This document shows, in pieces, positions 5,824-63,742 of a stretch of DNA of 64,000 nt; position 1 is the stretch's first letter, and the number at the start of each line of letters is the position of its first letter. The position numbers and the translations under genes were made by a program. The notes beneath the pieces are model-generated. The model searched no databases. It saw only the letters and a list, made by a program, of their open reading frames with translations, and was not told where the DNA came from. Source of the stretch: Rheinheimera sp. (GTDB lineage: Bacteria; Pseudomonadota; Gammaproteobacteria; Enterobacterales; Alteromonadaceae); assembly GCA_003543135.1 (NCBI GenBank), contig DPJG01000025.1, forward strand, positions 102,501 to 166,500, read 5' to 3'.

Positions 5824-8800
5824 CTAATTAAATTCAAGTTGTATTGTTGCTAATTGTTTTAACTGATGCAACAAAGCGTCTGTGGGTGTCACCCACCATT
5901 CTGTGCCCAGTGCCATGGTTATTGCGCCTTCAGGCCGCTGATAACGCAATTGCACCGGTACTGTGCCGGCTTTAAATTCTGCCAGCACCTGCTGTAATCT
6001 GGTTAAATAATCCGGTCCTGTCTGCGCCGAATCTACGGTGATAAACAACGACTTCAGACATTTTTCCCTTGCCTCTGTGATCTCAACCACCTCGCGGCCG
6101 GTCATTGTAAGGCCACCGCTGAAATCATCAAAGCTGACCTGTCCGGAAATCACCAAAACCTTGTCTTTTTGCAGCAGATGCTCGAAGTTCTCGAACTGTT
6201 CGGGGAAAAAACGAACATCTAACCGCGCTGATTTATCGTCCAGCTGCACCAAAGCCCAGCGCCGGCCTTTTTTGTTGATCAGCACCCGTACCGACACCAC
6301 TAAACCACAGGCTTTGACGGTTTGGTCACGCCGGCCCGGTTGCATTTCCACTAAACGGCAACTGGCATAATGCGGTAGTTCTGCCAGATAACGGTTTATA
6401 GGGTGACCTGTTAAATATAAACCGAGCGTTTCACGCTCCCCTTCCAGCCAGACTTCATCCGGCCAAATCGGCACCTGTTTAAAGGCTTTGGCGGCCATTT
6501 GTGGTTCAGGCGCCAATAAACCAAATAAATCACTTTGGCCCACAGCTTCGGCTTTGGCATGTTGCTCCGCCGCTTTCATCGCTTCTTCCAGGCTGGCCAT
6601 AGTGGCAGCTCTGTGCGGCCCGAGTTTATCCATAGCACCGGATAAAATCAGTTTTTCAATCACACGGCGATTGAGTTTTTTCAGGTCAACCTTGGCGCAA
6701 AAATCGAATAAATCAACAAAAGGGCCTTTTTGCGTGCGGGCTTCAATAATGGCTTCAATCGGGCCTTCGCCCACGCCTTTTATCGCGCCAATACCATAGA
6801 CAATATGGCCTTGTTCATTAACAGTGAACTTATATAAACCCTCGTTGACATCAGGCGGAATCAGCTTGAGTTTCATATGCTCACACTCATCCACCAGAGT
6901 GACGATTTTATCTGTGTTGTCCATATCGGCCGACATCACCGCCGCCATAAACTCGGCCGGATAATGGGCTTTCATCCATAAGGTTTGATAAGACACCAGC
7001 GCATAAGCGGCGGAGTGTGATTTGTTAAAACCGTAACCCGCGAACTTCTCGACCAAATCGAAGATTTTCATCGCAAGTTCTGGGTCCACCCCATTGGCTG
7101 CAGCACCGTTCTGGAAGGTGTCCCGCTGTTTGGCCATCTCTTCGGGTTTTTTCTTACCCATAGCACGGCGTAATAAGTCGGCGCCGCCCAGTGAATAACC
7201 GGACAGCACCTGCGCTATCTGCATCACCTGCTCCTGATACAGAATAATGCCGTAGGTAGGTTCCAGAATGGGCTTGAGCGATTCGTGCTGCCAGGTGGCA
7301 TCCGGATAAGAAATGGCTTCGCGGCCACGTTTACGGTCGATAAAGTTATCCACCATGCCCGATTGCAGCGGGCCAGGCCGGAACAGCGCCACCAAAGCTA
7401 TCATGTCTTCAAAACAGTCCGGTTGCAGACGGCGGATCAGGTCTTTCATACCCCGGGATTCCAGCTGGAACACCGCAGTGGTTTCCGCTTTCATCAGCAT
7501 GTCGTAACTTTTTTTATCAACCAGCGGAATTTGTGTGATATCTACCAGCGGCTTGCCTTCTTTACGGTGACGCTCGTTCACCATATTGACTGCCCACTGC
7601 AAAATAGTCAGGGTCCGAAGGCCTAAAAAGTCGAATTTGACGAGACCGGCATATTCAACGTCGTTTTTATCAAACTGGGTAACAGGGTTATTGCCTTCGC
7701 TGTCACAATACACAGGCGCAAAGTCGGTAATTTTGGTCGGCGCTATCACCACACCACCGGCGTGTTTACCGGCGTTACGGGTCACGCCTTCAAGGCGGCG
7801 TGCCATATCTATCAGATCTTTAACTTCTGAGTCGGCGGCATACAGCTCCGGCAAGCGTGGCTCTTCAATAAAAGCCTGTTCGAGCGTCATCCCAGGAGTG
7901 GGTGGGATCAGTTTAGAAATGCGGTCGACAAAACCATAAGGATGCCCCAGCACCCGGCCCACGTCGCGAATGACCGCTTTGGCCGCCATGGTACCAAAGG
8001 TAATAATTTGTGACACAGCCTCACGGCCGTACATGTCAGAGACGTGTTCTATCACCTCGTCGCGTCTGTCCATACAGAAGTCGACGTCAAAGTCGGGCAT
8101 CGACACCCGCTCCGGGTTCAAAAAGCGCTCAAAGAGTAAGTCGAATTCAAGCGGATCTAAGTCAGTGATTTTCAGCGCATAAGCCACCAGAGAACCGGCG
8201 CCTGAGCCCCGGCCCGGGCCCACCGGAATATCGTTATCCTTGGACCACTGGATAAACTCCATCACCACCAGGAAGTAACCGGGGAATCCCATCTGGTTAA
8301 TCACGTCGAGCTCAATTTGCAAACGTTCGTCGTATTCACCCCGCTTTTGTGCCCGCACTTTCTCATCCGGAAACAGAATTTTTAACCGCTCTTCCAAACC
8401 TTCACGCGACTTTAACACCAGAAAATCGGCATCTGTCATGCCCCCTGTCGGGAAAGCCGGCAGGAAATATTCGCCTAAACGGATAGTGACATTACAACGT
8501 TTGGCAATTTCAACTGAGTTGGCAAGGGCTTCAGGGATGTCGGCAAAGAGCGCCTGCATTTCTTCCGCAGAACGTAAGTACTGCTGCTCACTGTAATTTT
8601 TCGGCCTGCGTTTATCTTCCAGCGTGTAACCGTCGTGAATGGCCACCCTAATTTCATGGGCAGAAAAATCATCCGGTGTTAAAAACACCACTTCATTGGT
8701 GGCCACCACCGGCAGGCCGGTGTCTTCTGCCAGCGTCACCGCCTGCTGAATATAAATCTCTTCATCAACCCGGCCGGTGCGAATAAGCTCCAGAAAAAAC

Positions 8801-9291
8801 CGCTCTGGAAAATGCTGCTGATAAAAAGCCACCAGTTGCTCAGTGCTGCTTTTATTGCCTTTGATCAAGGCTTTGCCAAGGGGGCCATCTTTGCCACCCG
8901 ACAGCACAATTAAGCCAGGGCTGTGCTCTATCAGCCAGTCGTGGTCAATTTGCGGTTTGTCGGCAATATGGCCACGTAAATAAGCTTTGGACAACAACAT
9001 GGTCAGGTTCTGATAACCTTCGTTATCGCTTGCCAGCACCAGCAAACGACAGGCTTCACCCGGGAATAGCGGATGCTGCACATAAAGATCTGCACCCACT
9101 ATAGGTTTAATGCCGGCATCGTGAGCCGTGCTGTAAAACCGCACCAAACCACACATATTCATCTGATCAGTCAAAGCCAAGGCAGGCATCAACTGCTTTT
9201 TGGCAGCGCCCACTATAGGTTTGATTTTACTTAAGCCGTCCACCATCGAAAAATCGCTGTGTACGCGCAGATGAATAAATCCGGGTTCCAT
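5824..9291 (-). CDS. dnaE: DNA polymerase III subunit alpha
   Basis: 1155 residues, the usual length for DnaE1. It is the replicative polymerase subunit. The order is an N-terminal PHP domain ([15 protein letters not shown]), a C-family polymerase palm with [15 protein letters not shown] near residue 400 carrying two catalytic aspartates, a helix-hairpin-helix region, an OB fold and the C-terminal tau-binding part. The start at 9291 (MEPGFIHL) has AAAGG about 8-12 bases upstream and aligns with the family; an in-frame extension to 9354 overlaps nothing needed and is unlikely. It sits between rnhB and accA in the conserved block. Confidence 0.98.
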
Positions 9292-9381
9292 CACATTACC
9301 TTTTCCAAACTGCTTTGAAGCACTGACCAGCGCTGTGTACTCAATTGCATCCAAACCTCAGCTGTTGCACACCAGACGCTG

Positions 9382-10011
9382 TTACAAGTCTGTTTCATGC
9401 TGACGTTCAATGGCGTCGCGCACCGGTTTATAACTGCGCCGATGTTCCGCCAGAATACCGTGTTTGGCAATAGCGGCCAGATGTTCGGCCGTTGGATAAC
9501 CTTTATGGCCGGCAAAATTATATTCAGGATAGAGCTGGTGTAACTGCGTCATTTCAGCATCACGCGCCACTTTGGCCAGAATAGAAGCAGCGCTGATTTC
9601 CGGCACCAGACTGTCGCCTTTTACCACAGCACTGCCTTTGTGTTTTAAGCCATCCGGCACTCTGTTGCCGTCAATCAGCACCCATTCTGGCTGAATGTGC
9701 AGACCATCCACCGCCCTTTGCATCGCCAGCATAGTGGCATGCAAAATATTGATGTCGTCAATTTCTTCCACTTCTGCCCGGCCCAGGCTCCAGCTTAATG
9801 CTTTTTCGCGAATTTCAGCTGCTAATAACAACCGCTTTTTTTCACTGAGCTTTTTTGAATCTGTTAAACCGGCAATGGGTTTATTTGGGTCCAGGATCAC
9901 TGCAGCTGTCACCACAGCCCCCACCAGCGGGCCACGCCCGACTTCATCCACACCAGCCAATAAACTGACAGCAGGTCTTTGATAATCCGGATTTAAATTT
10001 GTATCAGACAT
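9382..10011 (-). CDS. rnhB: Ribonuclease HII
   Basis: 209 residues. RNase HII cuts RNA in RNA-DNA hybrids and single ribonucleotides in DNA. The active-site motif [16 protein letters not shown] near the N-terminus supplies the Asp-Glu pair, and [12 protein letters not shown] follows. The start MSDTNLNPD at 10011 overlaps the lpxB stop by eight bases, so translation is probably coupled; the longer frame upstream runs wholly inside lpxB and is discarded. The lpxB-rnhB-dnaE order is the common gammaproteobacterial one. Confidence 0.96.
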
Positions 10012-11149
10012 GAATAAGCTCCACCACAGCAGCAGCCGCTTTGGCGCTGGCGTCACAACAAATTTGCTGATGAATAGCGCTAAATTCAGCGCGGGTGTTG
10101 TCACCTTGTTGGCTCAGCAGCGGAGTCATGGCATCGAGTAAATGTTGTTCTGTCACTTCATGCTGCAAAAATTCCGGCACCAGTGCTTTTTTTGCCAGCA
10201 AATTGGGCAGGCTGAAATAATCGACTTTCACCAGACGTTTGGCAATTTGATAAGTCAGCCAGTTGGTTTTATAAGCCACCACCATCGGTGTTTTGGCCAG
10301 CATCGCTTCTAAAGTGGCAGTGCCGGAGGCAATAAACACCGCATCTGCGGCTGTTAAGGTTTGTCTTGCCTGCCCCACCAGCAGTGTCAGCTTGAGACTG
10401 GGCGCTGTTTCTGCCCAAATGGCATTAAAAATATCGGCTTTGGCCTGGGTCACCATATTACACACCAGCTGCAGCTCTGGGTTTTGCTGTTGCAGCTTGG
10501 CGGCAGCACGTAAAAAATCCGGCGCCAGCAATTTAATTTCATTACTTCTGCTACCCGGCATAATGGCCAGCAAAGGCTTATCGGCAGCAAAACCAAGCGC
10601 AACTTTTTCAGCGGTTTTATCCGGAGATAAAGGCATCTGGTCAGCCAATGTATGGCCAACAAAGGTACAAGGTACCTGATGCTGGTCGTAAAAGGCTTTT
10701 TCAAAAGGCAACAACGCCAGCACCATGTTGGTGGCTGCAGCAATTTTAAAAATACGTTTTTGCCGCCAGGCCCAAACCGAAGGGCTGACATAATGTACGG
10801 TTTTAATACCAGCCTGTTTTAATTTCAGCTCCACCGGCAAGTTAAAATCCGGTGCATCAATGCCAATAAACACATCCGGTTTGTGCAGATTAAAATGCGC
10901 CAGAATGTCACGGCGCACCTGTAATAACCGTGGCAGCCTGCCCAGCACTTCCACTATGCCCATCACCGCCAGCTCTTCCATATCAAACACCGCCTGAAAA
11001 CCTTCAGCGCGCATACGTTCACCGCCAATACCGTAAAATTCAGCGTTCGGTAGCCTGAGTTTTAATGCCCGGATAAGATCGGCGCCCAGAATGTCGCCGG
11101 AGTGTTCTCCTGCGATCAGCGCAATACGAACTGGCTTTGTAGTTTGCAT
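10004..11149 (-). CDS. lpxB: Lipid-A-disaccharide synthase
   Basis: 381 residues, GT19 family. It joins UDP-2,3-diacylglucosamine and lipid X into the lipid A disaccharide on the inner face of the inner membrane. It begins [20 protein letters not shown], the family signature, and has [13 protein letters not shown] and the nucleotide-binding PGSRSNEI and [10 protein letters not shown] segments. ATG at 11149; a TTG one codon upstream is in frame but not needed. Unlike the tight spacing elsewhere in the block, 182 bases and a strong hairpin separate it from lpxA, so it may need its own promoter. Confidence 0.97.
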
Positions 11150-53605: not shown

Positions 53606-54451
53606 TCATTTACTGAGTCCGGCGCTGCTTTGATGCTGCAGCGCCTGACCCAGCAAGGCAAAATAATCCAGCCAGCAGCGCTGCAGTTGTTCACTTAACA
53701 CTGTGGCCGGATATAAACCCGCTTTGGCCGCCGGCCCTTTTAAACAACCCGATACCAAAAAACTGTTTTTCAGCTGCTGCCGCTCCAGCATCTGTTCAAA
53801 AGCGCGCGCGGCCATTTCTTCGGGCATAGCGTAATAATATTGTTGCTGCATCTGGTCATAACGGCGGCAATGGCGGAAAAACTCACTTTCATCAAGGCCG
53901 GTTTCATCCAGATACAACAACTGAAATGCCCTGGCTAAATAGTCATTCAGCCGGTGCGGCACATAACTGTCGTGCTTTAACCACAAGGCGCTGGCAAAAC
54001 TCTGCGCTTTGGCATCAGCAAACATTTTCCCGGCAATATAATGGTCAAAAGCGTGAAACCACTCATGCGCCAGACTGCCACCACCGGCATTTTTCGCCAG
54101 CGCCAGAATACGGCCCTGCGGCTGATAATAAGCACAGCTGCCCGGCCGGCCGCCAATACCAAAAGTGAGCGACAGACTTTCATTGAGCGAAATCACCTGA
54201 GCTGGCACCGCCAGTAACAATTGCAGATCACAAAGGGCATCAAAAAACAGATTGGCGGCAATTTGCTGTTCAGCCGGCGTGACCCAACGGCCAATACAGA
54301 TACTCTGAAAACCAAAAATTTTTACTATATCGCCAAAGCTGACGTCTGCCCCACTGCGATGAGGTGGGCCATTACGAAAATAGGGCCGCGACAGCCTGCT
54401 GTGCCCTGCACTCTGTTCTGTCCTTGTAATTGCAGAACTTTTGCCGCTCAT
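53606..54451 (-). CDS. LPD1/CLCA_X-like protein with HEXXH motif
   Basis: 281 residues. The centre carries GIGGRPGSCAYYQPQGRILALAKNAG and then GSLAHEWFHAFDHYI, an HEXXH zinc-protease-like motif (about 130-134). This pairing is the LPD1 pattern seen in polyvalent proteins of mobile elements and in stand-alone CLCA_X proteins of marine gammaproteobacteria. The FARAFEQ-like end (MAARAFEQMLE) is also typical. Activity is unproven. No signal peptide. The first 35 residues are basic and poorly conserved-looking; the ribosome site is weak. It follows folM by 11 bases. Confidence 0.7.
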   Translation of the reverse strand: MSGKSSAITRTEQSAGHSRLSRPYFRNGPPHRSGADVSFGDIVKIFGFQSICIGRWVTPAEQQIAANLFFDALCDLQLLLAVPAQVISLNESLSLTFGIGGRPGSCAYYQPQGRILALAKNAGGGSLAHEWFHAFDHYIAGKMFADAKAQSFASALWLKHDSYVPHRLNDYLARAFQLLYLDETGLDESEFFRHCRRYDQMQQQYYYAMPEEMAARAFEQMLERQQLKNSFLVSGCLKGPAAKAGLYPATVLSEQLQRCWLDYFALLGQALQHQSSAGLSK

Positions 54452-54462
54452 CACAGCATCAG

Positions 54463-55716: not shown

Positions 55717-56010
55717 TTAGCCTGGCATTTTTGCCCAGGCAGCACACCAGCCGTTGTTATTGACCAGTTTACCCGGGAATATATTACATGGCCGCCATTC
55801 TGCTTTGGCATCGCCTTTGATTTGCATGCAGTTGCCGCAAGTTGAACCTTCTACTGTAGATTTATGCACATATTTCATTGCCACTGCCAGCGGGTCATCC
55901 AGCTTCACCTGCTCTTCAGCAAATACCCGCAGGCTAGTGCCGCCCATAGTGACGCCAATCAGGGTGGCGGTAGAAAGTTTCAGAAAATTGCGACGGTCGA
56001 GTTGACTCAT
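55717..56010 (-). CDS. High-potential iron-sulfur protein
   Basis: 97 residues with a Tat signal (DRRNFLKLSTATLIG, twin Arg at about 6-7, cleaved near residue 31). The mature part carries four cysteines that bind one 4Fe-4S cluster: CGNC, RPCNIFPG and GWCAAW. HiPIPs are periplasmic one-electron carriers, best known in Chromatiaceae and also in some aerobic gammaproteobacteria. AGGAGC precedes ATG 56010. It supports a Rheinheimera-like host. Confidence 0.95.
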   Translation of the reverse strand: MSQLDRRNFLKLSTATLIGVTMGGTSLRVFAEEQVKLDDPLAVAMKYVHKSTVEGSTCGNCMQIKGDAKAEWRPCNIFPGKLVNNNGWCAAWAKMPG

Positions 56011-56241: not shown

Positions 56242-56406
56242 TTATCGGCGGTTTTTACCCGGCAACAACAGCACAAGACTTAACAATAACAACAGCGGCA
56301 CCAGCACCAGCTGATTAAACACATCAGCCTCCATCCTAAGATTTAACCAGAGCACGGCGCTCCACTGCAGCAGCAGCGCCAGTCCATGCCAGAATGTCAG
56401 TTTCAT
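56242..56406 (-). CDS. 54-residue membrane protein
   Basis: A small gene with an excellent ribosome site (AAGGAG six bases before ATG 56406). It starts MKLTFWHGLALLLQWSAVLW and has a second hydrophobic block VLVPLLLLLSLVLLLPG, ending KNRR. Two membrane helices joined by NLRMEADVFNQ; the positive-inside rule puts both ends in the cytosol. It lies on the same strand upstream of the HiPIP gene, 231 bases away, and divergent from the GlxA-type regulator. No family recognised. Confidence 0.65.
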   Translation of the reverse strand: MKLTFWHGLALLLQWSAVLWLNLRMEADVFNQLVLVPLLLLLSLVLLLPGKNRR

Positions 56407-56507
56407 ACCAAACTCCTTATTGCTGCATTTATCGCCAGCTACTTTACAAGCAACAGATTAGCGCCTACAGTGGCATTAATGACATTAAAAAGGCGAATAA
56501 AGACAAA

Positions 56508-57497
56508 ATGCAACAAGTGGTGATTCTGATCTATCCAGGGGTGTGTCTGGGCCAGGTTTGTGGTATGCAGGACTATTTCCGCTTTTGTAACGATCTGGCA
56601 AAACACCAGAACCCGGACGCCGCCGCCTTGTATCAGGTGCAACTGATGCACATCGCCGGTGTTACTGAGTACCGCGATGGAATGCTGAGTCTGCATTGCC
56701 AACCCTTGTCGCTGGATGACGCTGATCTGGTGCTGATCCCCGGCAGTTATGCCCATAGCGCCGAGGCCTTACAAGGCATCGCCGAACTCTTTGCCCAACA
56801 AAAAGCCATGCTGCAGGCTGCCCACCACAGGGCCGTGCCTATTGCCGCCAGCTGTAATGGCAGCTTTGCACTGGCCGCCACCGGGTTGCTCAATGACAAA
56901 AGCGCCACCACCTGCTGGTTTCTGGCCGATTTTTTCCGGGAGCTGTACCCTGAAGTGACCTTGACTGTGGATGCCAAAATTCAGCAAGCAGATGGCCTTT
57001 ATACCGCTGGTGCCACCAGCGCTTATCTTGAATTGTGCTTGTACCTGACCCAAATTCAGCAAGGTGCCCGTTTTAGTCAGCAAATGGCGAAAATTATGCT
57101 GACCGATCCACAATGTGCATCCCAGGCTCCTTATTTAACGCTACAACAATTGCTGCCGCATCAGGACGATAAAATTGCTCAGGTGCAACAATATCTGCGT
57201 CGTCATCTTGCTGAAAATATTGAGCTTGCTGCCCTGGCCGATCATTTTGCGATGACGCCCAGAACTTTATTAAGACGCTTTAAACAAAGCACCGGTGACA
57301 CCCCTATGGCTTATTTACAAAAATTGCGTATTGAAAAAGCCAAATTGCTGCTTGAAAGCAGTTTATTGCCGGTGGAGCAGCTACTGCCCGTGGTGGGATA
57401 TGAAGATGTGTCGTCGTTTCGCAAATTATTTCAGCAATACACCAGCCTGACGCCTAAAGCGTATCGCGAGCGTTTTTATCTGGCAGAAAAACACTGA
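56508..57497 (+). CDS. GlxA family transcriptional regulator
   Basis: 329 residues. An N-terminal DJ-1/PfpI-like domain (QQVVILIYPGVCLGQVCGMQDYF, with AASCNGSFALAATGLL as nucleophile-elbow region) is joined to a C-terminal AraC-type double helix-turn-helix (LAALADHFAMTPRTLLRRFKQSTGDTP, FRKLFQQYTSLTPKAYRERF). Such proteins are ligand-controlled activators. MQQVVILIYPG at 56508 is the natural start, though its AAGG site is far; the frame to 56394 overlaps the divergent small gene. Confidence 0.88.
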   Translation: MQQVVILIYPGVCLGQVCGMQDYFRFCNDLAKHQNPDAAALYQVQLMHIAGVTEYRDGMLSLHCQPLSLDDADLVLIPGSYAHSAEALQGIAELFAQQKAMLQAAHHRAVPIAASCNGSFALAATGLLNDKSATTCWFLADFFRELYPEVTLTVDAKIQQADGLYTAGATSAYLELCLYLTQIQQGARFSQQMAKIMLTDPQCASQAPYLTLQQLLPHQDDKIAQVQQYLRRHLAENIELAALADHFAMTPRTLLRRFKQSTGDTPMAYLQKLRIEKAKLLLESSLLPVEQLLPVVGYEDVSSFRKLFQQYTSLTPKAYRERFYLAEKH

Positions 57498-57502
57498 CAG
57501 AC

Positions 57503-59152
57503 TCAGTGTTCGCTGAAGGCAAAACCATTACGGCCATTGGCTTTGGCCTGATACAGGGCATTGTCAGCGCGGCGCAGCATGCTGTCATAGTCGGCTTTGC
57601 TGGCTTCATCCACACAACAAATGCCGATACTGATACTGACATGATCAGTGGCCTGATTAAACTGATGCGGCAACGCCGCCTGGCGGAACAACAACAGCAA
57701 CTGACTGGCGATAGCGCTGGCTCCCGCCGCATTGGTATCTGGCAAAATGGCAATAAATTCTTCACCACCGTAGCGGGCCACTAAGTCGCTGCCGCGGTTA
57801 ATACCCTGCTGTAATAAAGCAGCAACCCGCACCAGCGTATCATCGCCGGCCTTATGACCATAGTGGTCGTTGTAGGCTTTAAAACAATCCACATCAATCA
57901 TCAGCAAGGTCAGTGGCCACTGCTGACGCTGTGCCTGCACCAGTGCCTGATGGAACTGCTGCTCAAAGGCCCGGCGGTTGGCAAGGCCGGTTAAACTGTC
58001 GGTATAAGACAGCTGCTGTAATTCCTGCTGCTGCGCGGCAACTGTACTGGCAAAATAAGCAAAAGAGCGGGCAATAGCAGCAATTTCATCATGACCTTCA
58101 ATCTGATGAGCGGCGGCTTTCCCCTGCACCTGCAACAATACGTTGTGATTAAGCTGCTCCAGCCGTCGCACCACGCGCCGATGGATCAGCGCAATGGCCA
58201 CCAGTAAAAACACAATGACCAATAAAGCGCCGGACAAAATCTGTCTGTTGTCTTGCTGTAACTGCTGCTGAATTTGCGCAGCGTCAGCAAGTACAGTGCC
58301 ACTGATGTCATAAGCACTGTTTTCGGCAAGGCGGGCGTAGTCCAGTACCAGATTACGCACAAAATTGCCACGCCCTGTGGCACGGCCACCAATAGCAAGC
58401 TGTTGCTCGCGCAGTGGCAACAAACCTTCACTTTCCAGCAATAAAGAACGCAACTGCAGATCGGACTGTTCCGCCAACTCCAGTTGATTAGCTGGTAAGA
58501 CGGCTCTGGCCTGACGCAGTCGTAACATTTGTTGCTCAATTTGTTGCTTTAGCTGACGCAGCTGCATCACACGGTTTGAATCACTGGCCTTGCCCGACAA
58601 AGTAACCACAGCGGCAAACTCCAGCAACCACTGGCTATGGCGCTCTTCGTCGGCCAGCGCCAGTTTGCTGGTATACAGCTGCACCTGTTCATACAACTGA
58701 TAAATCTGCTGCTGGCTACTCTGTACTTTACTCTGTAACTCCAGCCGCTCCGACATCAGCTGATTCAGGTTGTCGATTTCTTCGGTCAGCGCCACCAGCT
58801 GGGCATTCTGATAAAAACCGGTTTGCCATTCTTTGGTCAGGCTTTGCAGCCCCTGTAGGTTCAGCTGAATGTCCTGATACAGATTATGCCGCACCGCCTG
58901 ACTGGGCGAGCGGCTTAAGGCTTCGGTTAAGTAAAGTAACTGATTGATCTGGCTATAAACCTTGCTCGATTGCACCACAGCGGGAATGGCTGAACCCGTA
59001 ATGTTCTGCAACAAGTTCTGAAAACTGCCGAGTCGGTTTTGCACCAGCACCGCCATGGCAATGAACAGCAGCAACACCAGAAGCGAGGTTAAACTCAGCA
59101 TCATGGTGATGGAATAACGGCGGCGAACCGGCGTTGGCTTCAGACTGTTCAT
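57503..59152 (-). CDS. Membrane diguanylate cyclase with helical periplasmic sensor
   Basis: 549 residues. Membrane helix one is about 16-38; a long, Gln- and Leu-rich all-helical periplasmic region follows (about 39-304), like the four-helix-bundle sensor of TorS-type receptors; helix two is about 305-325; a HAMP linker; then GGDEF (TDSLTGLANRRAFEQQF, GGEEF near residue 462). RGSD five residues before GGEEF is an RxxD feedback site. Its ATG overlaps the stop of the upstream 5'-nucleotidase homologue as ATGA, so the two are translationally coupled and probably work together. Confidence 0.9.
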   Translation of the reverse strand: MNSLKPTPVRRRYSITMMLSLTSLLVLLLFIAMAVLVQNRLGSFQNLLQNITGSAIPAVVQSSKVYSQINQLLYLTEALSRSPSQAVRHNLYQDIQLNLQGLQSLTKEWQTGFYQNAQLVALTEEIDNLNQLMSERLELQSKVQSSQQQIYQLYEQVQLYTSKLALADEERHSQWLLEFAAVVTLSGKASDSNRVMQLRQLKQQIEQQMLRLRQARAVLPANQLELAEQSDLQLRSLLLESEGLLPLREQQLAIGGRATGRGNFVRNLVLDYARLAENSAYDISGTVLADAAQIQQQLQQDNRQILSGALLVIVFLLVAIALIHRRVVRRLEQLNHNVLLQVQGKAAAHQIEGHDEIAAIARSFAYFASTVAAQQQELQQLSYTDSLTGLANRRAFEQQFHQALVQAQRQQWPLTLLMIDVDCFKAYNDHYGHKAGDDTLVRVAALLQQGINRGSDLVARYGGEEFIAILPDTNAAGASAIASQLLLLFRQAALPHQFNQATDHVSISIGICCVDEASKADYDSMLRRADNALYQAKANGRNGFAFSEH

Positions 59153-60708
59153 GGCATCGTCCGCCCTACATCGACCAGCCGACCTTCAATCACCGGCGCT
59201 ACCTGCTGCTGTTGTTTGATGTAATCCACCACCACTTCGGCCACCAGTTTGTTCATCTGATTCGGATAATTCTGTTGTGGCAACTCGGTCAGCATTTTGT
59301 AACCGTCACCACCACCTGCCATATAATCAAAAGTCGCCAATGAGTATTTTTTATTTAAATCCAGTGTTTTGCCTTGTAAGGTCACCTCCAGCACCCGCTC
59401 GCCCACCGGCTTGCGGCTGTCGTAGCGCACCTGCATGCCGGACACATGGGCAAAACGGCCACGCAATAATTCCAGTTCGCTAAAAGAGTTTTCCAGCGCC
59501 GCCAGCAACTGCTGACCGCTGATTTGCAATAACACCACCTGATTGCGGTACGGCAGCTCCATGGCGATATCTTTGCGGGTGAGAGTGGCCCCCGCTTTAT
59601 ACTGTTTTTCGCCCCTGATATTGCCGGAATTTAACATGGCAATGTCGGCACCGGCATGCAGCCGCACGGCATCGGCTATCAGATTGCCAAAGGCATTTTC
59701 TTCACTGCGCACCGCGCGTCTGCTGGTGTCGAGCGCAACCTGGGTCAGGCCAATTTTTTCACCAAGCAGCTGCTCCAGTCTGGCGCTGTGATTTTTCACC
59801 ACACTCAGCACCTTAGGTTCAGGTGCAAAATTTTTCAGCAGCACAATATTGGGTTGAACCTGCAAAGTGGCAGGATCCGACTTTTGCCAGCTTAAATCCA
59901 GCACCGCCACTTCCGACGATGCCATCAGATTGATGTGGCGTGGCGAAGATGGTGCTTTTACATTAGAGGTCAGGCGGAATAACTCGTTTTTACGTAACGC
60001 CAGATCAATCAGCTGTTGTGACAATAAAGGCTCGATAAAATCAAAATTGGCGCTGTATAGCAGCACTATCAGCTCTGCACCGGCCTGACGTAACAATATC
60101 GACTGCTCGCGCACTGCTGTTTTGGCATCAAAAATCATCACCCTTTTCAGCGGATATTGTTCCTGCGCCGCTGGTGATAACACCGCAATGACACCAATTT
60201 TGATATCGCCCTGCTGCACCAGCACGCCGCTTTCCAGTCCATCGAGATTGGCGCCAGTGATAGGGTCATATAAGTTACTGGCGACCAGTGGGAATGAAGC
60301 TTCATAACTGCGCTGCGACAATTCATCTTCGTAAAAACTAAATTCCCTTTTCGCCACCCCCATAGCATCGGGTTCCAGTAAATTCAGCAAGTCAATAATA
60401 TGAGCGCCCCGGTCGAAGGACGACAATGTGCTGGGGCCTAAACTGTCGCCGCCAAACAGAAAAAACAGCGGCACCGGCTCACGCCGGTATTGTTTGAGTA
60501 AAGTAGCTAACTCGGCATAATCGCCATGTTCGGTTTCAGCAATACGGGGAATTTCAGAAGTAAACACCAGCCGCGCCTGACGCTGTTCACTGCTATTGGT
60601 GTCGTTGCCATGGCCTGCCAAAACGGACCCGAGCGGCAAGTAACAGCACAACAGCAACAGTTTAAGCCAGCAGGAGTTGTTGCCAGATTTGCGCTTTTTT
60701 GATTTCAC
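59149..60708 (-). CDS. Exported 5'-nucleotidase homologue lacking catalytic metal ligands
   Basis: 519 residues from GTG 60708 (AGAGG ten bases upstream), giving a signal peptide (basic start, LLLLCCYLPLGSVLA). The fold follows UshA-type 5'-nucleotidases but the metallophosphatase motifs are lost: TNDxHG is TSEIPR (about 50-55), GNHEFD is AKREFS (119-124), and the later SH and GGHSH histidines are absent. Of the metal ligands only the Asp of GGD (about 88) stays. The C-terminal nucleotide-binding domain is kept: NAFGNLIADAVR, NSGNIRGEKQYKAG, AGGGDGYKML. It is likely a periplasmic binder, not an enzyme, coupled to the diguanylate cyclase. Confidence 0.82.
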   Translation of the reverse strand: MKSKKRKSGNNSCWLKLLLLCCYLPLGSVLAGHGNDTNSSEQRQARLVFTSEIPRIAETEHGDYAELATLLKQYRREPVPLFFLFGGDSLGPSTLSSFDRGAHIIDLLNLLEPDAMGVAKREFSFYEDELSQRSYEASFPLVASNLYDPITGANLDGLESGVLVQQGDIKIGVIAVLSPAAQEQYPLKRVMIFDAKTAVREQSILLRQAGAELIVLLYSANFDFIEPLLSQQLIDLALRKNELFRLTSNVKAPSSPRHINLMASSEVAVLDLSWQKSDPATLQVQPNIVLLKNFAPEPKVLSVVKNHSARLEQLLGEKIGLTQVALDTSRRAVRSEENAFGNLIADAVRLHAGADIAMLNSGNIRGEKQYKAGATLTRKDIAMELPYRNQVVLLQISGQQLLAALENSFSELELLRGRFAHVSGMQVRYDSRKPVGERVLEVTLQGKTLDLNKKYSLATFDYMAGGGDGYKMLTELPQQNYPNQMNKLVAEVVVDYIKQQQQVAPVIEGRLVDVGRTMP

Positions 60709-61123: not shown

Positions 61124-63742
61124 ATGACGCCCAAATTCCCTGCCACCAGGCGACCACTTTCTGCACTTGGCAGCCTGCTGTTTGTTGCTGTTGCTGCTTG
61201 TCAGCCTGCAGCAGAAAACGCCGGCAATCAGCAAAACCCGACGGAGGCTGAGCCAGTGACAGCCCAAAGCCCGGCAACGGACCTGAACCTGTGGCCAGCC
61301 TTAACACCGGCTGTTGCCAGCAACCCTGAGCTGGAAGCAAGGCTTGAAAAAATATTAAGCAGCATGACACTGGAGCAAAAAATTGCCCAGATGATCCAGC
61401 CGGAGATCCGCGATATTACTGTCGCCGATATGCGCAAATACGGCTTTGGCTCTTATCTGAATGGCGGCGGATCTTTCCCGGATGGCAATAAACAGGCCAC
61501 GCCACAAGACTGGATCAAACTGGCCGAAGCCATGTATCAGGCCTCCATTGACGATGCTGAAGACGGCTCCACCATCCCCACTTTCTGGGGCACAGACGCT
61601 GTGCACGGCCATAACAATGTGATTGGCGCTACTTTGTTCCCGCACAATATTGGCCTAGGCGCCGCCCGTGATGAACAACTGATTGAAAAAATTGCCCGCG
61701 CCACTGCCCGCGAAGTGATGGTAACCGGTATTGACTGGGTGTTTGCGCCTACTGTGGCTGTGGTAAGGGACGATCGCTGGGGCAGAAGCTACGAAGGTTA
61801 TTCTGAAGATCCGGAAATTGTACGCTCGTACGCCGGTGCCATAGTGCGCGGTTTACAGGGCGCCACCACCGACAAAGATTTTCTGGGTGCTGAGCGTGTG
61901 GTCAGCACTGTCAAACACTTTATTGGAGATGGCGGCACTGAAGGGGGTGTTGATCAAGGCAATAACACCGCCAGTGAAGCCGATTTAGTGCGGTTACATG
62001 CCCAGGGTTATGTCGGCGGTCTTGCTGCCGGCGCCCAAACCGTGATGGCGTCCTTTAACAGCTGGCATGGCGTAAAAAACCACGGCAATTCTTATCTGTT
62101 AACCGATGTACTGAAAACCAGAATGGGTTTTGATGGTTTAGTGGTGGGTGACTGGAACGGCCATGGTCAAATTCCGGGCTGCAGCAATGAAAATTGTGCA
62201 GCGGCCGCCAAAGCGGGTTTAGATGTGTATATGGTGCCCACCGCCGCCTGGAAACCTTTATACAAAAACCTGATAGCCCAGACCAAAGCCGGTGAAATTC
62301 CACAAAGCCGCATTGACGATGCAGTGCGGCGTATTTTGCGGGTGAAACTGCGTGCCGGCCTTTTTGATAAACCAAGCCCGGCCAACCGGCCTTTGTCGGG
62401 TAAAACCGAGCTGATAGGCTCGGCAGAGCACAGAGCTATTGCCAGAGAAGCAGTGCAAAAGTCACTGGTGCTTTTGAAAAACAACAATATGTTGCCGCTG
62501 AGCCCAAAACAAAAAGTGCTGGTAACAGGCCCTGGTGCCGACAATATTGGTATGCAAAGTGGCGGCTGGACCATTACCTGGCAAGGCACCGGCAATCAGA
62601 ACAGCGATTTCCCGGGCGGCAGCTCCATTTACAAAGGCATTGAGCAGCAGGTACAAGCAGCCGGAGGTTCGGTTGAACTGAGCAGCGATGGCAGTTATCA
62701 GCAAAAACCTGATGTGGCCATCGTCGTTTACGGTGAACAACCTTACGCTGAAGGCAATGGCGACATCAACAATCTGGAATATCAGCGTGGCAATAAAACA
62801 GATTTGGCGATGCTGAAAAAACTCAAAGCCGATGGCATCAAAGTGGTGTCGCTTTTTATCAGCGGCCGGCCGCTTTGGGTAAACCCGGAAATCAACCAGT
62901 CTGATGCTTTTGTCGCCATTTGGTTACCGGGCAGCGAAGGTGCGGCCATTGCCCCTGTGTTATTCCAGAGTGCCGACGGCAAAATACAACAGGATTTTCA
63001 CGGCAAGCTGAGTTTTTCCTGGCCACAAAGCCCGAATCAAACCAGCGTCAACCGCGGTGATGACAACTATCAGCCACTGTTCCCTTATGGTTATGGCCTG
63101 AGTTACCAACAAAACCAACAGAGCACAGCGGATTTAGCGGCCAACCAATTGCCGGAACAGATCAGCGATGCAACCGCCGCCCTGGAGCCGCTGGTGCTGT
63201 TTAACCGCGACCTGAAAGCGCCCTGGCAGCTGATATTACAAAGTGGCCCACAAAACGCCGCTGTCAGCAGCAGCCAGCAAAAGCTGGGAGCCGTCAGCAT
63301 CCGCAGTTTTGATTACCAGGTGCAGGAAGACGCCCGCGAGCTGGTATTTAGTGAAGCAGCCGCCAGCAGCAACGCAGGTATTGCCATTATCAGCAGCTTC
63401 CCGCGCGACTTACGCGCCTACCGCGAACAGCCGTCGGTGTTAAGCCTGACACTCAAACGCGACAGCAAAGTACCGGACACAGTGCTGGTTGCCATGGCCT
63501 GCAATGAAAAGTGCAGTGCAACGCAGAATATCAGCAAAGCTTTAGCTGCAATGCCTGAAGGCAGCTGGCAACAGCTGCACCTGGATCTGGCATGTTTTGC
63601 TAACCAAGGTGTTGATTTTGCTCAAATTGGCAATGTGCTGACATTAGAATCCCAGGGCGCTTTAACGGTCAGTTTCCACCAGCTGCAAATTCAGCCGGTT
63701 ACCAAACTTGCTACTGATGCAGTAGTGATGGCCTGTGAGTAG
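61124..63742 (+). CDS. GH3 exo-beta-glucosidase lipoprotein (ExoP-like)
   Basis: 872 residues. The signal ends in the lipobox VAAC (Cys about 27), so it is membrane-linked. An N-terminal TIM-barrel GH3 domain (SSMTLEQKIAQMIQPE..., DRWGRSYEGYSEDPEIV, KHFIGDGGTEGG) has the nucleophile Asp 343 in GLVVGDWNGHG. The second GH3 domain holds LVLLKNNNMLPL and the acid/base region; a third beta-sandwich (about 665-872) resembles the extra domain of Pseudoalteromonas ExoP. It should release glucose from beta-glucans or cello-oligomers. AAGGA lies nine bases before ATG. Confidence 0.93.
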   Translation: MTPKFPATRRPLSALGSLLFVAVAACQPAAENAGNQQNPTEAEPVTAQSPATDLNLWPALTPAVASNPELEARLEKILSSMTLEQKIAQMIQPEIRDITVADMRKYGFGSYLNGGGSFPDGNKQATPQDWIKLAEAMYQASIDDAEDGSTIPTFWGTDAVHGHNNVIGATLFPHNIGLGAARDEQLIEKIARATAREVMVTGIDWVFAPTVAVVRDDRWGRSYEGYSEDPEIVRSYAGAIVRGLQGATTDKDFLGAERVVSTVKHFIGDGGTEGGVDQGNNTASEADLVRLHAQGYVGGLAAGAQTVMASFNSWHGVKNHGNSYLLTDVLKTRMGFDGLVVGDWNGHGQIPGCSNENCAAAAKAGLDVYMVPTAAWKPLYKNLIAQTKAGEIPQSRIDDAVRRILRVKLRAGLFDKPSPANRPLSGKTELIGSAEHRAIAREAVQKSLVLLKNNNMLPLSPKQKVLVTGPGADNIGMQSGGWTITWQGTGNQNSDFPGGSSIYKGIEQQVQAAGGSVELSSDGSYQQKPDVAIVVYGEQPYAEGNGDINNLEYQRGNKTDLAMLKKLKADGIKVVSLFISGRPLWVNPEINQSDAFVAIWLPGSEGAAIAPVLFQSADGKIQQDFHGKLSFSWPQSPNQTSVNRGDDNYQPLFPYGYGLSYQQNQQSTADLAANQLPEQISDATAALEPLVLFNRDLKAPWQLILQSGPQNAAVSSSQQKLGAVSIRSFDYQVQEDARELVFSEAAASSNAGIAIISSFPRDLRAYREQPSVLSLTLKRDSKVPDTVLVAMACNEKCSATQNISKALAAMPEGSWQQLHLDLACFANQGVDFAQIGNVLTLESQGALTVSFHQLQIQPVTKLATDAVVMACE

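Follow-up and report, generated by a model that had tools for sequence, protein, structure and literature searches.

A degenerate UshA-like 5'-nucleotidase paired with a membrane diguanylate cyclase in Rheinheimera, a candidate periplasmic co-receptor

A stretch of 64,000 nucleotides from a Rheinheimera sp. assembly (GCA_003543135.1, contig DPJG01000025.1, positions 102,501 to 166,500), hereafter the window, carries on its reverse strand two overlapping genes, one for an exported UshA-like protein and the other for a membrane protein predicted to synthesize cyclic di-GMP (c-di-GMP). The first (59149 to 60708, minus strand) starts with GTG and encodes 519 amino acids (aa), assigned to a pseudo-5'-nucleotidase from its open reading frame (ORF), Pfam, and motif tables. 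It begins with a putative signal peptide, recognized by eye in the sequence (residues 1 to 31, ...LKLLLLCCYLPLGSVLA; 60616 to 60708, minus strand), and carries a 5_nucleotid_C domain toward its end (residues 319 to 475; 59284 to 59754, minus strand; Pfam, 6.8e-39). The second (57503 to 59152, minus strand) encodes a membrane diguanylate cyclase of 549 aa, identified by ORF and Pfam, with the membrane helices located by eye. Its helical periplasmic sensor (approximately residues 38 to 303; 58244 to 59041, minus strand), which contains the motif GRGNFVRNL, lies between helices placed by eye from hydrophobicity and is followed by a GGDEF domain (residues 383 to 542; 57527 to 58006, minus strand), the one Pfam domain of this protein (2.5e-51). 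The cyclase ATG (59152 to 59150) and the nucleotidase TGA (59151 to 59149) share the sequence ATGA at 59149 to 59152 of the minus strand, suggesting that the two genes are translationally coupled. Both the overlap and the domain order, a 5_nucleotid_C protein followed by a GGDEF protein with a helical periplasmic sensor, had been read correctly in a preliminary description of this DNA.

To follow the fate of the active site, we aligned the window protein with 107 other distinct members of its protein family, a divergent solo relative (L063), and 29 homologues from outside the family that include UshA of E. coli K-12, whose numbering is used for residue positions. The identity of the numbered residues was verified in UshA, and the roles of those other than Phe429, Phe498, and His117 are presumed. 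Pfam matched 5_nucleotid_C, and nothing else, in the window protein and found this domain in 59 of 59 relatives; the Metallophos domain was not recognized by Pfam in the window protein and gave one weak match among the 59 (E 0.24). Against the NCBIfam UshA model the window protein scored 120.3 bits, under the curated cutoff of 600, while the model of SoxB, a thiosulfohydrolase of the same superfamily, matched 59/59 members below its cutoff. In the window protein FTSEIPRI stands in place of TNDxHG and AKREFS in place of GNHEFD, and GGHSH is absent. His117, the catalytic residue of UshA according to the excerpted text of PMC7922932, was kept in none of the 108 members and is replaced by Arg in 102; Asn116 was kept in 7 and lost in 101, with Lys in its place in 89. 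These two positions correspond to R121 and K120 of the window protein. His43 was found in 0/108 members (three of them gaps) and His252 in a single one. Among the 29 outside homologues, His117 was present in all, Asn116, His217, and His252 in 28 each, and His43 in 18. The aspartates fared differently: Asp84 was kept in 12/108 members, the window protein among them, and the Asp41 position is occupied by Asp in 35 members and by Glu in 38 others, the window protein included. The earlier claim that nearly every metal ligand had been lost was verified for the three motifs and has to be amended for the retained Asp84 aspartate and the Glu at Asp41. Judged by these residues, the nucleotidase is predicted to be catalytically dead across the whole family, with a broken metal site.

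The C-terminal domain, by contrast, has kept its pocket residues, as had been proposed for its nucleotide-binding motifs. The equivalents of Arg379, Arg410, and Asp504 were conserved in 108/108 members, the Phe498 position was Tyr or Phe in all 108, and the Phe429 position was Phe or Tyr in 107. The pocket residues of the window protein are R330, R334, R365, Y387, Y462, and D468. UshA stacks its substrate on Phe429 and Phe498, according to excerpts of PMC7922932, and the ligand of the pocket in the present family is most likely a nucleotide or a nucleotide derivative. Constraint along the protein was estimated as column entropy over 75 representatives sharing <75% identity. The lowest values, 0.86 to 1.17 bits per column, fell at residues 80 to 147 (60268 to 60471, minus strand), which contain the former Asp84 and Asn-His loops and now carry the replacement motif GGxSLGPS...FDRGxHIIDxLN...KREFS; the pocket-bearing segments of the C-domain gave 1.44 to 1.9 bits and the remainder up to 2.9 bits. 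With the strongest conservation in the whole protein, the former catalytic segment appears to be under selection and re-used rather than left to decay as a relic. A decaying pseudogene was ruled out by the open frames, a mean column identity of 44%, and a constraint that is strongest in the dead segment.

We then examined how often the two genes occur together. Of 295 genomes from the host's taxonomic family, 61 had a full-length pseudo-nucleotidase (plus one contig-end fragment), and a separate query with cyclase residues 1 to 344, from which the GGDEF domain was omitted, also gave matches in 61. Both searches returned the identical 61 combinations of genome, contig, and strand, with the matches adjacent in 61/61 cases and 0 to 120 nucleotides (nt) between them. 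At the genus level, six of 16 genomes had a match and ten had none. Being found in 61/295 genomes of the family, the pair is far beyond chance, and the genome search suggested in the preliminary description found its pairing conserved; likewise, its motif alignment yielded no pair member with the catalytic His among the 108. In 47 of the 58 full-length partner ORFs (counted on the longest ORF) the partner overlaps the nucleotidase gene, in 22 of them by exactly 4 nt. Left out of these counts are L055 and L195 (the same gene, adjacent to its partner and without an ORF under our rule), the contig-end fragment L062, and L067, which gave no tblastn match.

A second survey covered named loci (the best 80 of 160), many of which repeat genes of the 295-genome set, and used peptide patterns containing the replacement motif, by which intact homologues are not detectable. 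A GGDEF ORF lay directly downstream in 75 and a kinase in two; at the remaining loci the GGDEF ORF was split (L178), the locus was cut by a contig end (L182), or the ORF rule failed (L195). In the Arsukibacterium assembly concerned (L178, the same gene as L031), the cyclase frame is split and the GGDEF ORF begins 963 nt past the nucleotidase. In the Balneatrix order the protein was present in 12 of 390 genomes, followed by a GGDEF protein in 11 and by a kinase in Balneatrix itself. Overall, the protein family was found in Gammaproteobacteria, Alphaproteobacteria (Azospirillum), and one member of Thermodesulfobacteriota.

Outside the family, Pfam recognized no GGDEF, kinase, or chemoreceptor domain directly downstream in 37 contexts of homologues, a result drawn from the 14 ORFs that reach 250 aa and start within 500 nt on the same strand, with ca. 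1.5 kb of downstream sequence in six of the 37 (L205 to L210) and in L310. Kinases near intact homologues were judged by Pfam on these downstream ORFs, since the peptide-pattern scan overlooked some kinases, for example that of L327. A gene for an unrelated GGDEF protein does lie just upstream of the intact nucleotidase L309, and its sensor gave no match to the cyclase-sensor profile; near L065, another is encoded on the opposite strand at a distance of 3 kb. L205 to L210 are intact, apparently stand-alone nucleotidases of Desulfobacteria, with a C-domain close to that of the family (142 to 161 bits).

The catalytic half of the partner seems sound. The window cyclase has RYGGEEF and an inhibitory-site RxxD (R453 to F466; 57755 to 57796, minus strand), and R453, D456, and G462 to F466 were invariant in 58/58 aligned partners; the GGDEF signature thus reads as intact, as in a competent diguanylate cyclase. 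Some partners have further neighbors. In two Nitrincola loci a third gene overlaps the end of the cyclase gene (7447 to 10276 of the reverse strand in L297, 7174 to 9970 in L298) and, by eye, encodes a PhnD-like periplasmic part, a PAS domain, a degenerate GGDEF domain, and an EAL domain, so that this operon may combine the c-di-GMP synthase with what is likely a phosphodiesterase. At L301 and L302, ca. 2 to 4.3 kb past the nucleotidase, a protein of unrecognized kind and a CheY-type receiver look-alike were noted by eye.

The output is not always a GGDEF domain. A histidine kinase follows the pseudo-nucleotidase in Desulfamplus magnetovallimortis (L191, at -4 nt), in Balneatrix alpica (L199, at +3 nt), and at six loci on Azospirillum megaplasmids (L324, L325, L327, L331, L334, and L335), these being six of 16 records among the matches listed. 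Seven of the eight kinase sensors (L334 was left out) were compared with the profile of the cyclase sensors and matched at 99.4% (L191, E 2.9e-21), 97.8% (L199), 98.2 to 98.3% (L324, L325, and L335), 97.7% (L327), and 96.6% (L331), while the reversed kinase-sensor sequences gave background values; among the chemoreceptor controls, L289 alone counts. The divergent GGDEF partners of L301, L302, and L300 matched the same profile at 95.8, 96.4, and 31.5%, respectively. Behind a homologous sensor, the output appears to be exchangeable between GGDEF and histidine kinase.

This sensor resembles that of TorS. A profile of 41 cyclase sensors aligned with a profile of TorS and 30 homologues (hhalign) at 97.8%, E 7.7e-13, and a score of 95.8 when the membrane helices were included (237 columns), against scores of 10.8 to 19.4 for one reversed and ten column-shuffled TorS profiles. 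Without the helices the values were 95.9%, E 5.1e-9, and 66.2, and the controls scored 9.3 to 14.5. Taken singly, the 41 pair sensors scored 16.0 to 50.7 against the TorS profile, the lowest of them overlapping the range of control GGDEF loci (14.4 to 19.1), which are few: of the genome's 29 other GGDEF loci, 3 yielded a two-helix sensor that could be used. The best single kinase sensor, that of L327, reached 83%, the top of a range of 2 to 83%. When eight genomes were searched for the TorS sensor, the cyclase of the pair was the sole match in two (G047 and G203), once over the curated cutoff; two others had a match elsewhere and four, including the window genome, had none. We regard the cyclase sensor as distantly related to the TorS sensors and not as one of them. 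TorS is built of stacked four-helix bundles, for which piston-like movements have been reported (PMC8534201, in excerpt).

In the phylogenetic tree, the solo relative L063 grouped with the 108 members in one clade (local support of 0.977), whose sister group consists of three proteins from Tistrella and Methylobacterium (L326, L328, and L329; node support of 0.979). A single origin of the dead protein and its capture of a TorS-like partner would fit this tree; the weakly supported branch order within the clade does not fix how often the output was swapped. Pairwise distances in 49 nonredundant pairs pointed to the sensor as well. Those of the nucleotidase N-domain correlated with the sensor at r = 0.748, with its own C-domain at 0.711, and with GGDEF at 0.638, and the partial correlations were 0.54 for the sensor given GGDEF and 0.21 for GGDEF given the sensor. 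For the C-domain, the corresponding partial values were 0.47 and 0.14. The direction of these correlations fits a contact between nucleotidase and sensor.

Within the window, the pair stands alone because both neighboring genes, for an AraC-type regulator (56394 to 57497) and a family 3 glycoside hydrolase (61124 to 63742), are on the other (plus) strand. Among named loci (best 80 of 160), the closest relative is that of Rheinheimera sp. 4Y26, which is 98% identical. The genome contains 50 GGDEF matches, and the pseudo-nucleotidase is the sole 5_nucleotid_C protein found in it, a result that rules out a spare copy beside an active enzyme from its own family. Farther along the minus strand, a short protein with a Tat-like signal (55717 to 56010) resembles, by eye, a high-potential iron-sulfur protein, and a protein at 53606 to 54454 carries an LPD1 domain (2e-20), described in Pfam as large polyvalent protein-associated domain 1.

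Taken together, we consider it likely that the pair is a two-protein periplasmic sensor in which a dead 5'-nucleotidase acts as nucleotide-binding co-receptor for the membrane cyclase. A functional partnership between the pseudo-nucleotidase and the transducer, already proposed in the preliminary description, is strongly supported by comparative sequence evidence, because the two co-occur strictly, the output is swapped behind a homologous sensor, and the distances track the sensor over GGDEF. We infer the physical contact, which ligand is bound, the part played by the hinge, and the direction of the signal. A 5'-nucleotidase would have lost its dimetal site and become a binding protein that continues to hold a ligand, most probably a nucleotide or derivative, in its C-terminal pocket. 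In UshA, substrate is bound by the C-domain while the protein is open, and a large hinge rotation carries the phosphate to the metals (PMC7922932, in excerpt). In the pair, the ligand would close the dead nucleotidase without hydrolysis, and the closed state would offer the helical sensor a new surface, built mostly from the conserved segment that was once catalytic. The sensor would pass the change via its second transmembrane helix and linker and turn c-di-GMP synthesis up or down. The Lys-Arg pair at the former metal center may hold the phosphate. The most specific version, a catalytic cycle turned into a switch in which this Lys-Arg pair holds the nucleotide phosphate uncleaved and the ligand-locked hinge drives a TorS-like sensor with interchangeable outputs, is put forward tentatively, as a possibility that we lean somewhat against.

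Several observations weigh against the co-receptor interpretation. Arg375 was kept in 84/108 members and Asn431 in 40/108, and because these positions vary, the family may bind a different ligand than UshA does. The state of His217 depends on the alignment (0/108 in one, 12/60 in an earlier alignment of 60 members), with a His one or two columns off in 40/108, for which reason this ligand is not callable as lost in all members. The divergent pseudo-nucleotidase L063 has no transducer downstream; this gene sits behind one for an exported protein that, by eye, resembles a nucleoside phosphorylase or nucleosidase. The parallel drawn earlier with TorT and TorS holds for the sensor profiles and not for the window cyclase alone, in which Pfam gave no TorS-sensor match. 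Pfam recognized a TorS sensor in 3/58 partners and 4HB_MCP_1 likewise in 3/58, and since so few match the former and as many the latter, it is possible that the sensor is a helical bundle of a more general kind. A sequence search of the PDB with the sensor profile returned coiled-coil noise only and no TorS, and the kinase sensor of L199 compared with the TorS profile at 2%, no match. Finally, the correlated distances partly reflect shared descent, and pairs of pairs are not independent.

Some of these points would suit a co-receptor whose ligand is not a nucleotide and might instead be a sugar phosphate, a nucleoside, a cell wall fragment, or an algal metabolite. Such a protein, which shares its co-receptor part with the interpretation given above, would be consistent with the variable Asn431 and Arg375 positions, the rebuilt N-terminal half of the old site, and a superfamily that includes SoxB, whose model matches 59/59 members at sub-cutoff scores; many genera that we take to be marine also appear among the named hosts (best 80 of 160 loci). 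We consider it unlikely, given base-stacking positions that are aromatic in 107/108 and 108/108 members and Arg379, Arg410, and Asp504 conserved in all 108. A partner that needs no small ligand can also be imagined. YfiR acts on YfiN as a protein brake, and an inhibitory or stress-responsive protein of that sort, answering to the state of the envelope, would make the former catalytic segment, where constraint is strongest, a possible interface. Pocket residues, however, need not be invariant over 108 proteins in a brake, and we judge this improbable.

The same highly conserved segment could belong to an enzyme with a rebuilt site whose product is fed to the cyclase sensor, and the window protein does keep one metal aspartate, Asp stands at the Asp41 position in 35/108 members, and some have a His at or near the His217 position. 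This is very improbable in view of His117, lost in 108/108 and kept in 29/29 proteins outside the family, and of the absence of His43 in 108 and of His252 in 107/108. As for two genes merely transcribed together and acting separately, adjacency by itself is no demonstration of contact. Co-occurrence in 61/61, a sensor kept through an output swap, and 0/37 outside homologues with a transducer directly downstream leave this explanation hardly any credit. The nucleotide-binding co-receptor remains the interpretation that we prefer.

If true, it would add a co-receptor family derived from a 5'-nucleotidase-type metallophosphoesterase and a route by which c-di-GMP networks sense nucleotides outside the cell. 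To our knowledge, the periplasmic co-receptors known from such pairs are mostly periplasmic binding proteins. The pair, a dead UshA-type sensor, and extracellular nucleotide sensing via c-di-GMP appeared undescribed among the matches listed for the open-licence literature, as far as excerpts go. In the accessible portion of a review on c-di-GMP sensing (PMC8846402) the word nucleotidase is absent, and its nucleotide section deals with GDP, GTP, or cyclic-mononucleotide systems that act via degenerate GGDEF, cNMP-binding, or GAF domains. There is also a warning for annotation: two annotated members bear the name "5'-nucleotidase C-terminal domain-containing protein" and are assigned to the nucleotide catabolic process in spite of their lost catalytic residue.

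Compared with known systems, the pair shares with TorT-TorS of E. coli a soluble periplasmic protein, and a membrane receptor with a helical periplasmic sensor, the two sensors appearing related by profile. TorT belongs to the periplasmic binding proteins and has a different fold, whereas the soluble partner here is a predicted dead 5'-nucleotidase that matches 5_nucleotid_C only, and the output of TorS is a kinase while that of the window partner is GGDEF. We know of no nucleotidase relation for NspS of Vibrio cholerae. Its pair with MbaA is alike in that a periplasmic binding protein signals to a membrane partner whose output is c-di-GMP (from excerpted sources), and in the present family an exported soluble protein and a membrane GGDEF protein are adjacent in 61/61 cases (export and helices judged by eye); a difference is that NspS binds polyamine, according to the same excerpts. 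The nearest proteins in the tree, the Tistrella and Methylobacterium 5'-nucleotidases, have the signature SPSLxSGxDxGxHI in common with the family, but their GNHEFDFG and later His ligands are intact (with Asp or Tyr at the His43 position) and no ORF of at least 250 aa lies directly downstream. With UshA and ecto-5'-nucleotidase (CD73), the pseudo-nucleotidase shares the C-terminal domain and the residues of the nucleotide pocket; unlike both, it appears to have neither a dimetal site nor a catalytic His and is strictly coupled to a transducer gene.

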